Positions 19,406 to 31,909 of a DNA stretch of 33,498 nt are shown here, one piece after another (positions within the stretch are counted from its first letter, which is position 1; the number at the start of each line of letters is the position of its first letter). Source of the DNA: a virus; the IMG/VR virus record IMGVR_UViG_3300030117_007486, positions 1-33,498 of that record. One strand, 5' to 3'. A program made the translations under genes and the position numbers. A model generated the notes under the pieces. The model saw nothing but the letters and a program-made list of their open reading frames with translations. It did not search any database and was not told where the DNA came from.

Positions 19406-20017
19406 TTATAACTCCACCCAGTAGCCTTTACTACCTTCCGCAATAAAAACATAGTTTCTACCAGTACCAGTATTTATCCAAATATCACCAGAGGTTGCCG
19501 ATGTGGGTTGATTGGGAGAGACATTTGTATTGACTGGTGTGCTACTTGAAACCGGAAACTTTCGAGACAATCCGGGTCTAATATATTTTGAAGTTTCATA
19601 GTTTACTAAAGGTTTATTTTGTAAAAGATAAGAGTAAACTAATTGCTTCTCCTTTGTCACAAGATCAATGGACTGTTGAGATCCACCCTTTATCTGGATT
19701 GGAAATTCAAGAGGTCTAATGTTTTTATTTTGCTCGTACAATGATCTCATATTGTTTATTTTTTGGTCAGTCAACTCCGGATGTGCTTGTTTAATTTGTG
19801 CATTCGTAAGTGGTGTTTTTTCTCCGTGGGCAAAATTGCCCTCCACAATCATACTCACGAAATGATACCTCGCTGTTTGACCAGCAGGATAAGTTCCCCG
19901 TTCACCGTCTGCGAAAGTAAAATTTTTCGTATAACCATCCTCCTCTGCAAAAATAGTTAGTTGCACTCCCTTTGCCTCAAGATAACTTATTAGGTTGTTA
20001 ATACTTTCTACTGTCAT
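19406..20017 (-). CDS. Unknown baseplate-cluster protein with a fibre-like C-terminal motif
   Basis: A 203-residue protein. I place the start at 20017 because this ATG overlaps the PAAR gene's stop codon by 4 bases (ATGA) and opens with MTVESINNLISYLEAKG; an upstream in-frame start would run deep into the PAAR gene. The N-terminal half is not recognised. The C-terminal 30 residues (TSATSGDIWINTGTGRNYVF then GYWVEL) match a short module often seen at the ends of phage tail and fibre proteins. Downstream of the spike tip and before the 676-residue gene, it is probably a virion or spike-associated component. It shows no recognisable lysozyme motif. Confidence 0.5.
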   Translation of the reverse strand: MTVESINNLISYLEAKGVQLTIFAEEDGYTKNFTFADGERGTYPAGQTARYHFVSMIVEGNFAHGEKTPLTNAQIKQAHPELTDQKINNMRSLYEQNKNIRPLEFPIQIKGGSQQSIDLVTKEKQLVYSYLLQNKPLVNYETSKYIRPGLSRKFPVSSSTPVNTNVSPNQPTSATSGDIWINTGTGRNYVFIAEGSKGYWVEL

Positions 20018-20280
20018 CCGATATTCACATTTCCAGAACCAGTTGTTATTGAGTGTGAGCAAGTTGCTGAATCAGTCACCCTAGCCAAACCAATTCCTCC
20101 ACTCTTTACAGTGTTACTTGCAGTCAATACTCTTGACGCACTATGGGGTGAGTCGCCGTGTGGTGAAATTGAGGATCCCTCTGTTGCCGGTGGTAAACCA
20201 TTTACAAAAACATTGTTTGCATTACTTGTCACAATGCTTCCTCCTGCCTTGTCACCAATTTTTGCTGCTGGTAATCCCAT
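20014..20280 (-). CDS. 5.4: PAAR-repeat spike tip protein (gp5.4-like)
   Basis: An 88-residue protein starting MGLPAAKIGDKAGG with VNGLPPATEGSSISPHGD, then STVKSG-type strands (here NTVKSGGIGLARVTDSATCS) and an SITTGSGNVNIG end. This is the PAAR-domain pattern: a small cone that caps the tip of the central spike in T4 (gp5.4) and type VI secretion systems and binds a metal through His/Cys residues. Candidate ligands are the two histidines in SPHGDSPHS and the CSH near the C-terminus. It lies directly after the gp5-like spike gene, as expected for its partner. No strong ribosome binding site is visible; coupling to the upstream gene is likely. Confidence 0.88.
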   Translation of the reverse strand: MGLPAAKIGDKAGGSIVTSNANNVFVNGLPPATEGSSISPHGDSPHSASRVLTASNTVKSGGIGLARVTDSATCSHSITTGSGNVNIG

Positions 20281-26322: not shown

Positions 26323-27015
26323 ATGAGCATTCCAATTATTGTGACACCAAAATATGAAACAAAAATCCCAAGTGGTAAGGTTGTTTCTTTTCGACCTTTT
26401 CTTGTGAAAGAAGAAAAAGTTATGTTGATGATGAAAGAGTCTGATTCACCAAGAGAAATTATTAGTTGTATTGAAAAAGTTGTTCAGTCTTGCGTGGAGG
26501 ATGACACAAAGGTTCAGGACTTGTCATACTTTGACCTTGAGCATTTGTTCATTCATATGAGAGCAAGGTCAGTGGGCGAAAGCATTGATATTAATTACAC
26601 CTGCGAAAAATGTGAAAAATCATTTCCGCTCGAAGTTCAAATTCAAAACCTGTCATTGAGTAAAGAGTATCCAGAGGAAACAATCGTTATGCTTCAAGAA
26701 AACGTGGGTGTTGAAGTGAAACCTCTAAATGCAGATTCAATCGGAGCCTACACGGGCGAGGAATCTGATGTTTTAACTTTGTCTGAGAGTGTGATTAAAA
26801 CAGTTTTCAATGATCAAAATGTTTATAATTTTAACGACTTCACTAAGCAAGAGAGAGTTGAATTCATTGAATCCTTGAGTATCAAACAGATTCAAAAGAT
26901 TGTCGAAAAAATGGAAGAGTTTCCGAGGTGTGTGATTAAACAATCTTGTAAATGCACACATTGTGATGAAAATCTGGACATTGAAGTGGAGGGCTTACAG
27001 AATTTTTTTACTTGA
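26323..27015 (+). CDS. 26: Tail/hub assembly chaperone gp26
   Basis: A 230-residue protein of the T4 gp26 baseplate family (PF12322 type): it opens IIVTPKYETKIPSGKVVSFR, then SYFDLEHLFIHMRARSVGES. Two cysteine pairs, Cys94-x-x-Cys97 (TCEKCEKSF) and Cys211-x-x-Cys214 (KCTHCDENL), with a further Cys209, suggest a zinc ribbon. In T4 gp26 acts in hub assembly; by order it is the counterpart of lambda G and P2 E, the chaperones made just before the tape measure. The ATG has AAAGGA upstream. The last codons run over a seven-T tract before the stop, and the next frame continues (see the frameshift signal). Confidence 0.85.
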   Translation: MSIPIIVTPKYETKIPSGKVVSFRPFLVKEEKVMLMMKESDSPREIISCIEKVVQSCVEDDTKVQDLSYFDLEHLFIHMRARSVGESIDINYTCEKCEKSFPLEVQIQNLSLSKEYPEETIVMLQENVGVEVKPLNADSIGAYTGEESDVLTLSESVIKTVFNDQNVYNFNDFTKQERVEFIESLSIKQIQKIVEKMEEFPRCVIKQSCKCTHCDENLDIEVEGLQNFFT

Positions 27016-27045
27016 TGATGGGTCACGACTCGATTGCGTCCCATC
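26988..27045 (+). promoter_or_regulatory. Programmed -1 frameshift signal
   Basis: Four elements lie in the right order on the message. GGAGGG (26988-26993) resembles the stimulatory internal Shine-Dalgarno of dnaX and ends 9 bases before the slippery run. T-TTT-TTT (27003-27009) is in the correct phase, with both Phe codons able to slip one base back. A 7-base spacer follows. Then a stem GATGGG (27017-27022) pairs with CCCATC (27040-27045), with an inner ACG/CGT extension. The zero-frame stop codon is at 27013-27015. Slippage would give a fusion of gp26 residues 1-229 with 61 residues of the next frame. Confidence 0.75.
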
Positions 27046-27194
27046 TTCAAATGAATTTTTACTTGATGTTGAAGGCTCAAATGAGTCTTGAAACAATCGG
27101 AAATATGATCCCGTGGGAGAGAATAATTTACGTTAATCTCTACATACAGGACATTGAGAAAGAAAGAAAGGAAATAGAGAAGGGAAGAGCATAA
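27009..27194 (+). CDS. Small chaperone extension/gp51-like ORF, reached by -1 frameshift or reinitiation
   Basis: This frame is -1 relative to gp26. As a frameshift extension it begins at the TAC codon at 27009 and adds 61 residues. As a free gene it would start at ATG 27015, which overlaps the gp26 stop (TGATG), giving 59 residues. The sequence is helical (SHLQMNFYLMLKAQMSLETI, then WERIIYVNLYIQDIEKERKE) and ends with charged helix. The pairing with gp26 and the tape measure directly downstream (TAATG overlap) match the T domain of lambda GT and the P2 E' extension, which bind tape measure protein. T4 gp51 is much larger and similarity to it was not seen. Confidence 0.65.
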   Translation, partial: YLMMGHDSIASHLQMNFYLMLKAQMSLETIGNMIPWERIIYVNLYIQDIEKERKEIEKGRA

Positions 27195-28834
27195 TGGCTG
27201 AATTTGAAGGACTAGACCCAAACTCCGAACGAGATGAAATCAGAGATATTATCTCGGCTTTGTCGCAGGGTAATGCGGGTGAAGATAAACTTGAAAAAGA
27301 TATCTCAGACATCAAAAGTAATGTTGATGTAATCGTATCTAAAACAATGACTGGTCCCTCAAAGGAAGAGCGAGAAGAGGATGTTCGGCAACAAAAGAGT
27401 AATGCTAACTATTTGGCTAATCTCTTAGCGGAAAAACTTTTTAATGTTTTTGGTTCGCAACTTGAAAAACTTAAAGAAATTGCCCAAAATACTAAACCAC
27501 TCACCGAAGAAGGATTTAAAGTTCCCCTTTTGCCTGCGGCATTAGCGAGTGGAGTCGCCGCCGCTGGTGTTGGTCGGCAAGTCGCAGCGGCACAGGCAAT
27601 TAAAGACAGTAGAATTATTCGTGGGTCTTTTATCAGAGGTGTCAGAAACCCGTTGACAAGATTATTTAGAGCGATTGGTAATATTTCTTTCGGCAGAAGC
27701 GGTGACTCAATTAGAGTCAGGCTCATTTCACTTCGTGTTCAATTCACAGAATTTTTCAAAAGACTTAATGCAAGATTTTTCGGATCTGGTGAAAACACAC
27801 TTTTTTCAAGAATACAAAGATTCTTTGGCAATATTCGTAAAGCGTTTGGACCAACAGGAAGAATTGGAAGGCTATTTGCACAGGGAGGTGCATTTGCAAG
27901 TGTGTCTAATTTATTCAAAAATGTCGGCGGTGTGCTAGTTAAAGTTAAACCATTCCTGAGAAGTCTGTTTAGATTTGTTCCTTTCCTCGGACAACTACTC
28001 ATCGCATTTGACGCTATCACCGGATTTATCAGAGGATTTACCGCAGAGGATGGTGGATTTTTGAAAGGCATCAGACAAGCCTTTGCCAGCGTAATCGAAG
28101 GTCTATCCTTTGGGCTTCTATCTGAAGAGGGTGTGATGGGCTTCTTTGACAAAGTTATTAAAGGTTTTACAGATTTCTTTGGAGCGATTGTTCACTTTGT
28201 TGAATTTAAGGCACTGCCTTTCTTTACAGAAACAATACCAGATGTTTTCAATAAGGTAAAATTATTCTTTGTGAAAACACTACCTGATTTTTTCTCAGTG
28301 ACACTCCCGGGATTAGTTAAACTAGCAGTTGCAAATGCAGCCTTTTTCTTTAAAGACACAATACCCACTGCCTTTACGAATCTGGTGGATCGTGTCAAGA
28401 TTATGGTGAACAATGTCGCAGCGACCTTGATGGAGGGTATTGCAGGCATCATTGACGATATTAATAGTAGACTTAGTTTCTTTGGAGTTGAAATTGGTGG
28501 CACAGAGGCTCTTCGTGGTGGTGCAGCAGCATCTCGAAATTTAAGTGCTGATCTTGAGAATCAAATTATTAATCGAGCGGCAGCATCACAGGGAAGACTT
28601 GAAAATATTCGTCGTGACATCACATCTGAAATGGAAAGAAAGATGGCTGCAAGAGATAGAGTTTTTGAGGCACGACAAAGAGCCGATAACGCTGGAGTAT
28701 CACCAACCGTGATTGTGCAAAATAGCACCACTCCAGTCAGTAATAATTTTGCTCTTGAGTCCTCTCCCTCTGCATCCACTTCAGATATGGAAGCCGCTGT
28801 TCACGCGATGCAAGGTATCGCCTTTGGTGGATAA
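27194..28834 (+). CDS. 29: Tail tape measure protein, gp29-like
   Basis: A 546-residue protein (T4 gp29 is 590). It has an acidic, coiled N-terminus (EKDISDIKSNVDVIVSK), a basic Arg/Phe-rich middle with repeating FF/FR pairs (TRLFRAIGNISFGRSGD, NARFFGSGENTLFSRIQRFF), hydrophobic helices (RFVPFLGQLLIAFDAITGFI near residue 270), a run of F/P-rich amphipathic repeats (ALPFFTETIPDVFNKVKLFF then KTLPDFFSVTLPGLVKL) and a charged coiled C-terminus. This is the usual make-up of a tape measure, which fixes tail length and occupies the tube. The chaperone pair immediately upstream supports the call. Its start overlaps the preceding stop by one base. A length near that of gp29 predicts a tail slightly shorter than T4's. 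Confidence 0.72.
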   Translation: MAEFEGLDPNSERDEIRDIISALSQGNAGEDKLEKDISDIKSNVDVIVSKTMTGPSKEEREEDVRQQKSNANYLANLLAEKLFNVFGSQLEKLKEIAQNTKPLTEEGFKVPLLPAALASGVAAAGVGRQVAAAQAIKDSRIIRGSFIRGVRNPLTRLFRAIGNISFGRSGDSIRVRLISLRVQFTEFFKRLNARFFGSGENTLFSRIQRFFGNIRKAFGPTGRIGRLFAQGGAFASVSNLFKNVGGVLVKVKPFLRSLFRFVPFLGQLLIAFDAITGFIRGFTAEDGGFLKGIRQAFASVIEGLSFGLLSEEGVMGFFDKVIKGFTDFFGAIVHFVEFKALPFFTETIPDVFNKVKLFFVKTLPDFFSVTLPGLVKLAVANAAFFFKDTIPTAFTNLVDRVKIMVNNVAATLMEGIAGIIDDINSRLSFFGVEIGGTEALRGGAAASRNLSADLENQIINRAAASQGRLENIRRDITSEMERKMAARDRVFEARQRADNAGVSPTVIVQNSTTPVSNNFALESSPSASTSDMEAAVHAMQGIAFGG

Positions 28835-30140: not shown

Positions 30141-30851
30141 ATGTCACAGTTTCAGCAAGACAATGTTCGATTAAATCCCGGTCTTTCCGGAGCAAGCGTA
30201 GCGACCGATTATGTGTCCGCAAAAGACTCACATTACCAAATTGTAAAACTTGACTTTGGTGATGAGAACTCATTTTCTCAAGTATCAAACCAAAATCCAC
30301 TCCCTGTAAATATCCAAGGAATCAACAGCACTTTCAATACTTTGCCGGTTGCCGGTAACACGAACGGTGGGGCTGTTCTGGTATCTGGAACATTTGGATT
30401 TACAGGATCTATTTCTGGGGATCAATTTGGAGTGACCCTTACCGCTATCACTGGTGGTGTCACCTTCGGAATTGTTAACGCACCCGGAACCACGCTGAGT
30501 GTCACTGATTCACAAATTGTCGTAAAGAGTGTCGTGCTTCCAACGTCGCTCACTATGGGTTCGAGGGTCATCAGCGGTTCATCCCCATCAATTCTGACTC
30601 TCTCAGGATTCTCTTGTGAAACAGGAATTAAAGTTAAAAACTTCGCGGGCTTGACGAACAGTGGTGCTATTTTAACAGTAAGTAATTCAGATTATTCCGC
30701 GACAGGTAAAACTGCAAATGCTTATATGCTGCTTCCCGGCGAGGAAATTTTTATCGAAGTAAGTGATATTGATAAACTTAGATTCTCCGCCATTCTTGAT
30801 CCATTCAACCCCACAAGGCAACTGGTCACACTTTCTTATCAGGCTTCATAA
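30141..30851 (+). CDS. Putative virion protein of unknown function
   Basis: A 236-residue protein rich in Gly, Ser, Thr and Val, with predicted beta structure throughout. The N-terminal stretch DSHYQIVKLDFGDENSFSQV then SNQNPLPVNIQG resembles a short module (HxQxVKL...NPLPV) common at the start of phage structural and decoration proteins. The end (MLLPGEEIFIEVSDIDKLRF) looks like a beta-sandwich edge. I do not recognise the family beyond that. GGAG lies 9 bases before the ATG. It heads a coupled three-gene unit (TAATG, then TGATG overlaps), so the three products probably act together. Confidence 0.55.
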   Translation: MSQFQQDNVRLNPGLSGASVATDYVSAKDSHYQIVKLDFGDENSFSQVSNQNPLPVNIQGINSTFNTLPVAGNTNGGAVLVSGTFGFTGSISGDQFGVTLTAITGGVTFGIVNAPGTTLSVTDSQIVVKSVVLPTSLTMGSRVISGSSPSILTLSGFSCETGIKVKNFAGLTNSGAILTVSNSDYSATGKTANAYMLLPGEEIFIEVSDIDKLRFSAILDPFNPTRQLVTLSYQAS

Positions 30852-31909
30852 TGAGACAAAAGATTCGCAAGGCGGTTTCTGCCCTATCAAAAGGTCAATT
30901 ACTACGGCGAGATCAAGCAGTTGCTTTTGATGTAAACGAACCTCCATACTTTCCTGATCGATATGGTGCTTGCTGCACGACTGGCGGTGCGCAAGACGGA
31001 ACTTTTTGCCAATGCACAGACAACATTCTAGGTAGAGACTGCTGTATTCAAGGCGGCATTCACTACGCAGGATTTAGTTGTGGTCAGGTAAACTGTTGTG
31101 AGACAGGACCGGACTGCTTTGGTGCGTTTTGTAATGTGACACCAGACACACCTGCTGCTTGTATTGAAGGCACAAGAGCGAGTCCTCCAAAGGGCGATTG
31201 GGTTTTCCAAGGTTGTGGAACAACCTGTAGTGACACTCTTTGTCCAGATCCAGAAACCACAAATAGATGTTGTCTCAGATGCGGTGATGGTTATGAAAAT
31301 CCAGACGCACTGAATGGTGAGTGTATTGATGGGGTGGGATTGTCTAAATCATTTTGTGATAAAAAGGGTGGTCTTTTTACAGAAAGTGCGAGTTGTGGCG
31401 ATACCCCCGTTTGTAAGGATGAGTGTATTGTGACAACTACAGGCTCTTGTTGTTTCATAAATCCGGGTACTGGGGAACTAGAATGTTTCGATGGTGTTGA
31501 GGAATCTACTTGTGATGTATTAAATGGTGTTTTCAAAGAGGGTGTCGGCTGTGATTCAGATCCTTGCTCCGAGGTTTTCACACTTTGTTGTGACACACCA
31601 ACGACGGTGAGTTATGGTTCTTGTCCGGGATTCGATGGAACAATTTGTTTTATAAACTCTGACTGCACAAAAAGAGTGGTTGACATAGATGACTTTGGAA
31701 CAATTGATTGTTGTGCGCAAAATACTGGTGATGTTGGAGGGGAGACTTTTACCGACTGTAGTTGCAATTCGAGTGGATGCCAGAACGCAAAGAATCTTCC
31801 AGATTGCAATGCTCACTTATGTGATGATGGCATTGGTCAACCAAGCGAGGCTGATTGTTGCACTGAATCATTCGATGCAACTTTAAATTGTGGAGAGGAT
31901 TGTTCCTGA
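30851..31909 (+). CDS. Extremely cysteine-rich GACC-repeat protein
   Basis: A 352-residue protein with 45 cysteines by hand count (about 13%), many as Cys-Cys pairs. A basic N-terminus of about 35 residues (MRQKIRKAVSALSKGQLLRR) precedes repeats of the form GxCCxxxxG...C...C...GGxFxxGxxCxxxxC, for example GSCCFINPGTGELECFDG then STCDVLNGVFKEGVGCDSDP. Similar GACC-type repeats occur in secreted bacterial proteins, notably of planctomycetes. No signal peptide is seen. Such spacing suggests small disulfide- or metal-stabilised knots on an exposed structure. Its coupling to two virion-like genes suggests a surface or fibre component. Function is unknown. Confidence 0.6.
   Translation: MRQKIRKAVSALSKGQLLRRDQAVAFDVNEPPYFPDRYGACCTTGGAQDGTFCQCTDNILGRDCCIQGGIHYAGFSCGQVNCCETGPDCFGAFCNVTPDTPAACIEGTRASPPKGDWVFQGCGTTCSDTLCPDPETTNRCCLRCGDGYENPDALNGECIDGVGLSKSFCDKKGGLFTESASCGDTPVCKDECIVTTTGSCCFINPGTGELECFDGVEESTCDVLNGVFKEGVGCDSDPCSEVFTLCCDTPTTVSYGSCPGFDGTICFINSDCTKRVVDIDDFGTIDCCAQNTGDVGGETFTDCSCNSSGCQNAKNLPDCNAHLCDDGIGQPSEADCCTESFDATLNCGEDCS

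Follow-up and report, generated by a model that had tools for sequence, protein, structure and literature searches.

A probable programmed −1 ribosomal frameshift at the gp26/gp51 junction of an uncultivated T4-like phage and its relatives

Introduction

A 2010 paper (PMC3004832) counts T4 gp26 and gp51 among the chaperones of hub assembly and describes gp51 as an essential protein with an unknown function. In the viral DNA analyzed here (33,498 nt, IMG/VR record IMGVR_UViG_3300030117_007486, positions 1 to 33,498; hereinafter the window), the 3′ end of a gp26 gene runs into a short open reading frame in the −1 frame, directly before a presumed tape measure gene. This raises the question of how that second frame is translated: by ribosomes that slip at the end of gp26, by a fresh start, from a slipped transcript, or perhaps not as part of gp26 at all. 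Comparing the junction with those of a large set of relatives, we propose that it is very probably a programmed −1 ribosomal frameshift site, which would yield a short (TAC-N) and a long (TAC-NC) chaperone.

The gp26/gp51 junction in the window

The features that bear on this question are the following:

26323..27015, + strand: gp26 (230 aa), predicted short tail assembly chaperone, TAC-N (PF12322, phrog_150)
26988..26993, + strand: GGAGGG, candidate SD-like stimulator, separated from the heptamer by a 9-nt spacer (from sequence)
27003..27009, + strand: putative slippery heptamer T TTT TTT, in gp26 phase (from sequence and its conservation in relatives)
27009..27194, + strand: −1 frame extension (gp51 / TAC-C domain), 61 aa, starting at the re-read T 27009 and ending at the stop TAA 27192-27194 (phrog_634)
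27012..27050, + strand: predicted downstream hairpin, core GATGGG 27017-27022 / CCCATC 27040-27045, outer UUGA/UCAA
27013..27015, + strand: zero-frame stop TGA, one codon past the heptamer (from sequence)
27194..28834, + strand: 546-aa product, presumed to be the tape measure protein (from its position and, in relatives, its rapid divergence and differing lengths)

The gp26 product matches the Pfam family PF12322 (T4_baseplate) at 170.4 bits, the cut-off being 24.5, and its PHROG match is phrog_150 (baseplate hub). Its gene ends in the codons GTG GAG GGC TTA CAG AAT TTT TTT ACT TGA, and a one-base slip at the heptamer would read FF-YLMMGHDSIASHLQMNFYLM..., adding 61 residues to give a 290-aa fusion (229 + 61). 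A PHROG search places this extension in phrog_634 ('baseplate hub assembly catalyst', E-value 3e-17), with a further, weak match to the C-terminal end of phrog_150. The phrog_634 match identifies the small ORF as the C-terminal domain of gp51. Sequence searches of the PDB with gp26 and gp51 yielded no convincing relative. Downstream of the heptamer, the segment 27012-27050 has a minimum free energy of −15.4 kcal/mol (z −2.96), with 1 of 200 shuffles equally good. The E. coli dnaX signal consists of an upstream SD-like site, a slippery run and a downstream hairpin, and all three are present in the window.

The original prediction, made from this DNA alone, had noted the GGAGGG, the heptamer, a stop in the spacer and the stem, each of which is found where it was placed, and translation bears out the 61-codon open −1 frame, the 230-residue gp26 and the 290-residue fusion that it gave. 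The junction that it drew between gp26 and a small overlapping ORF likewise stands, with the correction that this ORF is not anonymous, being the C-terminal domain of gp51 (PHROG 634).

Elsewhere, the window codes for a probable tail fiber protein of 1356 aa with collagen-like GATGAT repeats (PF01391; 1082-5152, − strand) and a 352-aa cysteine-rich protein with no Pfam match, which is unusual for a phage structural region (30851-31909, + strand). The segment 19406-20280 (− strand) contains a PAAR-motif spike tip (20014-20280) after a gp5-like ORF. The ORF following the PAAR gene has its listed TTG start inside that gene; translation more likely begins at an ATG that overlaps the stop of the PAAR gene (ATGA).

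Conservation of the junction in relatives

We searched IMG/VR with several queries and collected 226 unique gp26 ends, leaving the frame unconstrained in the analysis. gp51 is detected at 224 of them, the two exceptions being T4-type loci, and its frame is −1 in 224/224. Of these 224 gp26/gp51 junctions, 209 carry T TTT TT[C/T/G] in phase, and the 15 that lack it are all from Ackermannviridae. This survey also covers the check that the original prediction had put forward against itself, namely homologues that keep the small ORF and lose the run or the frame relation: the frame is retained throughout, and the run is absent only from those 15 ackermannvirid junctions.

In 207 relatives the stop lies 0-3 codons past the heptamer, which takes the form TTTTTTC in 132, TTTTTTT in 72 and TTTTTTG in 3, with a stop exactly one codon later being the commonest spacing (158/207). 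In two further loci (L251 and L254), the heptamer is followed by a longer tail, which brings the count to 209. We viewed 15 junctions by eye, including those of Kyanoviridae, Straboviridae (ValKK3 and Aeromonas CC2), Pootjesviridae phiM9, pf16, ACP17, LG08 and two Ackermannviridae, and 13 show the arrangement of the window. In the closest relative (L001, with 82% protein identity in gp26), the junction arrangement is identical and the hairpin is intact. Its DNA agrees with that of the window at 63 of 65 nt across 26980-27044, as compared to 498/657 upstream and 118/147 downstream, and synonymous changes affect 1 of the last 12 gp26 codons versus 84 of 177 elsewhere (p 0.007).

Public annotations often omit or shorten the long form. 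At two of the surveyed loci (L003 4714-4890 and L016 3082-3174), gp51 is either absent from the annotation (S-H9-1) or begun at an internal ATG (P-HM2), and the long form is missing from the S-H9-1 and P-HM2 records that we saw.

Codon choice at the heptamer

Codon-level selection was assessed in a non-redundant set of 90 clusters at 70% protein identity, all of which were selected because they carry the heptamer (without this selection, the proportion is the above 209/224). The first Phe of the heptamer is encoded by TTT in 90/90 clusters, with log10 P ~ −21 given the Phe codon use of each gene, a value that is optimistic because the relatives share ancestry and are not independent observations. 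TTT is used here even in GC-rich genes with 0-3 TTT versus 7-13 TTC codons elsewhere. At other places in these 90 gp26 genes, only 7 of 21,337 codon positions show T TTT TTN in phase, and its presence at 209/224 junctions is hence far beyond chance.

The heptamer could in principle be a by-product of a conserved Phe-Phe motif. We reject this because T4-type gp26, in which gp51 is a separate gene, has a similar C-terminus (GLKEFF or a variant) and keeps Phe with other codons (GA[AG] TTC TTT, GAA TTC ATT, AAA TTA TTT or similar), never with the heptamer, and because other FF pairs in the 90 genes are written as T TTT TT[CT] in 5 of 77 cases.

Flanking elements

The stretch from 6 to 18 nt before the heptamer pairs with the anti-SD sequence at a median energy of −5.7 kcal/mol across the 90 clusters, as against −0.1 for in-frame segments elsewhere in these genes, and in 59% of the clusters this SD-like region is among the best 5% of its own gene. 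Glu codons within it are GAG in 34 and GAA in 20 cases, against a background of 547 to 1538. As for the downstream element, a set rich in marine cyanophages (median z −1.96, with z < −2 in 48%) gave the first impression of a universal hairpin. This was rejected, as such hairpins form a minority in the non-redundant set (median z −0.5, with z < −2 in 20%); the downstream hairpin thus looks lineage-specific.

Proposed mechanism and alternatives

Based on these patterns, we propose that most ribosomes would terminate at TGA 27013 and release gp26 as the short chaperone. When U UUU UUU occupies the P and A sites with its two Phe codons, some ribosomes would move back by one base, a step probably favored by pairing of GGAGGG with 16S rRNA behind the ribosome and by the hairpin ahead of it. 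The slipped ribosomes would then add 61 residues, giving the 290-aa long form with a C-terminal domain equivalent to the C-terminus of T4 gp51. We infer both the slip and its efficiency, that is, the ratio of the two forms. By analogy with lambda G/GT and P2 E/E′, both forms might serve the presumed tape measure protein, the product of the gene directly downstream, by coating and delivering it.

An alternative is termination at TGA 27013 with a fresh start at ATG 27015, which would yield a separate 59-aa gp51 and no fusion. Since this ATG overlaps the stop (TGATG), coupled reinitiation is possible in the window; L001 has the same overlap and some relatives have TAATG or a similar one, yet TGATG is a minority trait. 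ATG 27015 has no SD at the normal distance, with GGAGGG ending 21 nt before it, too far for a normal SD. Of the 90 non-redundant clusters, 54 offer no ATG, GTG or TTG in the −1 ORF as far as the sixth extension residue, and reinitiation therefore cannot make gp51 in these many relatives. Their extension is still conserved: across 58 clusters in which its first six residues have no start codon, L4, S5, H6, S8, L9, N11, N16 and F17 are strongly conserved. Reinitiation would also leave the heptamer and its codon choice without a purpose, and T4 retains the extension fused to a gp26-like domain. We accordingly reject gp51 as an independently started gene and regard termination-reinitiation as a very improbable account of the locus. 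It can add to the arrangement but not explain it, and is at most a side route. The suggestion in the original prediction that the TGATG overlap allows reinitiation thus survives as a possibility for the window but not as a general route, the overlap being peculiar to some lineages and many relatives having no start codon.

Still less probable is transcriptional slippage, by which the T run would be transcribed with extra or missing bases and ordinary translation of that mRNA would give the fusion. The seven T of the window might invite this reading, but runs of six or seven T are short for polymerase slippage, and we reject it because most relatives have six T only (TTTTTTC in 132/207). Moreover, the codon phase of the run is fixed, and SD-like and hairpin elements work on ribosomes. 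Finally, homopolymer runs are error-prone in sequencing, which could be counted in favor of two unrelated ORFs brought together by a sequencing error or by coincidence. However, the same arrangement recurs in independently sequenced isolates and at 209 unique junctions, and the survey excludes this explanation, to which we attach a negligible probability. Ribosomal frameshifting hence accounts, in our view, for the gp26/gp51 junction, and would make the two T4 baseplate hub assembly proteins the counterpart of one recoded chaperone gene in most of the relatives surveyed. The heptamer offers a simple, testable handle on tail assembly in marine T4-like phages.

The downstream gene and the fold of gp26

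The 546-aa ORF has no Pfam match and no convincing PDB sequence match. In relatives, the ORF after gp51 codes for 424-892 aa, is fast-evolving and lies within 60 nt (<=60 nt) in 169/183 cases. These properties fit a tape measure protein, which we presume it to be. An AlphaFold2 model of gp26 (pLDDT 88.8) was used in a Foldseek search, in which 3FGX has the highest probability among the 50 matches listed, though below significance (probability 0.57, 2.1 Å over 56 columns, E 2.6). The model also matched the HK97 chaperone 2OB9 (gp13), with E-values for 3FGX and 2OB9 of 2.2-2.6, which are not significant. A model of T4-type gp51 gave no useful fold match.

T4, Ackermannviridae and the evolution of the pair

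T4 gp26, with 208 aa, corresponds to the short form. T4 gp51 is a 249-aa paralogue of gp26 that combines a PF12322 domain of its own (177 bits) with the extension behind it; the two are related at E 2e-6 in BLASTP, and the gp51 C-terminus matches phrog_634, as does the window extension. In a tree of 44 sequences, T4-type gp26 and gp51 fall together across a 95/82 branch from all frameshifters, which include the KVP40-type and CC2 Straboviridae. This is suggestive of one gp26/gp51 duplication in the T4 lineage, and suggestive only because the branches are long and the tree is unrooted.

In the Ackermannviridae (L189-L206 and L008), gp51 likewise occupies the −1 frame, with a conserved GA[AG] ATT TTC AT in place of the heptamer, the junction sequence being GA[AG]ATTTTCATTTAA; Vibrio phage YC has GCT TTC AT instead. 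Their gp51 is often without an obvious start codon. Judging from these sequences, the junction might possibly support a non-canonical slip like that of T7 gene 10.

Taking these lineages together, we tentatively suggest, while leaning slightly against it, that a recoding signal of fixed geometry (an SD-like site, then T TTT TTY, then the stop after one further codon) may have been ancestral to the T4-like phages, abandoned once by duplication (T4 genes 26 and 51) and replaced in the Ackermannviridae by a non-canonical slip at [AG]ATTTTCAT. If true, the gp26/gp51 family would be a natural experiment in the loss or rewiring of a recoded gene.

Comparison with known systems

Vladimirov, Gautam & Davidson (Virology 566:9-15, 2022) reportedly found frameshifting to be conserved in several groups of T4-like phages, with T4 genes 26 and 51 being separate. 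In the phage Adele paper (PMC12846349), Vladimirov et al. 2022 is the reference given for poly-T slippery sites in the chaperone genes of T4-like phages. The T4-like chaperones gp26 (TAC-N) and gp51 (TAC-NC) share both their family and their C-terminal domain with the window products. The link from gp26 to the G/GT system drawn in the original prediction is therefore right but already known, the principle of frameshifting in T4-like phages having been published in 2022. What is added here beyond that idea is the scale of the survey, the codon-level tests, the SD-like element, the variable hairpins, the paralogue tree and the Ackermannviridae exception, with overlap with the 2022 paper being possible.

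Among more distant systems, lambda G/GT likewise comprises a short and a long chaperone, produced by −1 slippage immediately ahead of the tape measure gene H, whereas its slippery site is G GGA AAG rather than T TTT TTT. P2 E/E′ has T TTT TTG in phase and, like the window, a −1 extension that reaches the tape measure gene (T), but E is 91 aa and its stop lies several codons past the heptamer as against one codon in the window. For both, the likeness seen is one of arrangement and not of sequence. E. coli dnaX slips on A AAA AAG to give a truncated product, while that predicted for the window is extended. The loci of Vandenendeviridae and Andersonviridae (phage Adele, PMC12846349) resemble the window in a −1 shift at poly-T and an open −1 frame before the tape measure gene, with the difference that their motif is GTTTTT in place of T TTT TTN and that they belong to different phage families. 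The window phage is a new, uncultivated and well-supported example of such recoding and not a new kind of system.
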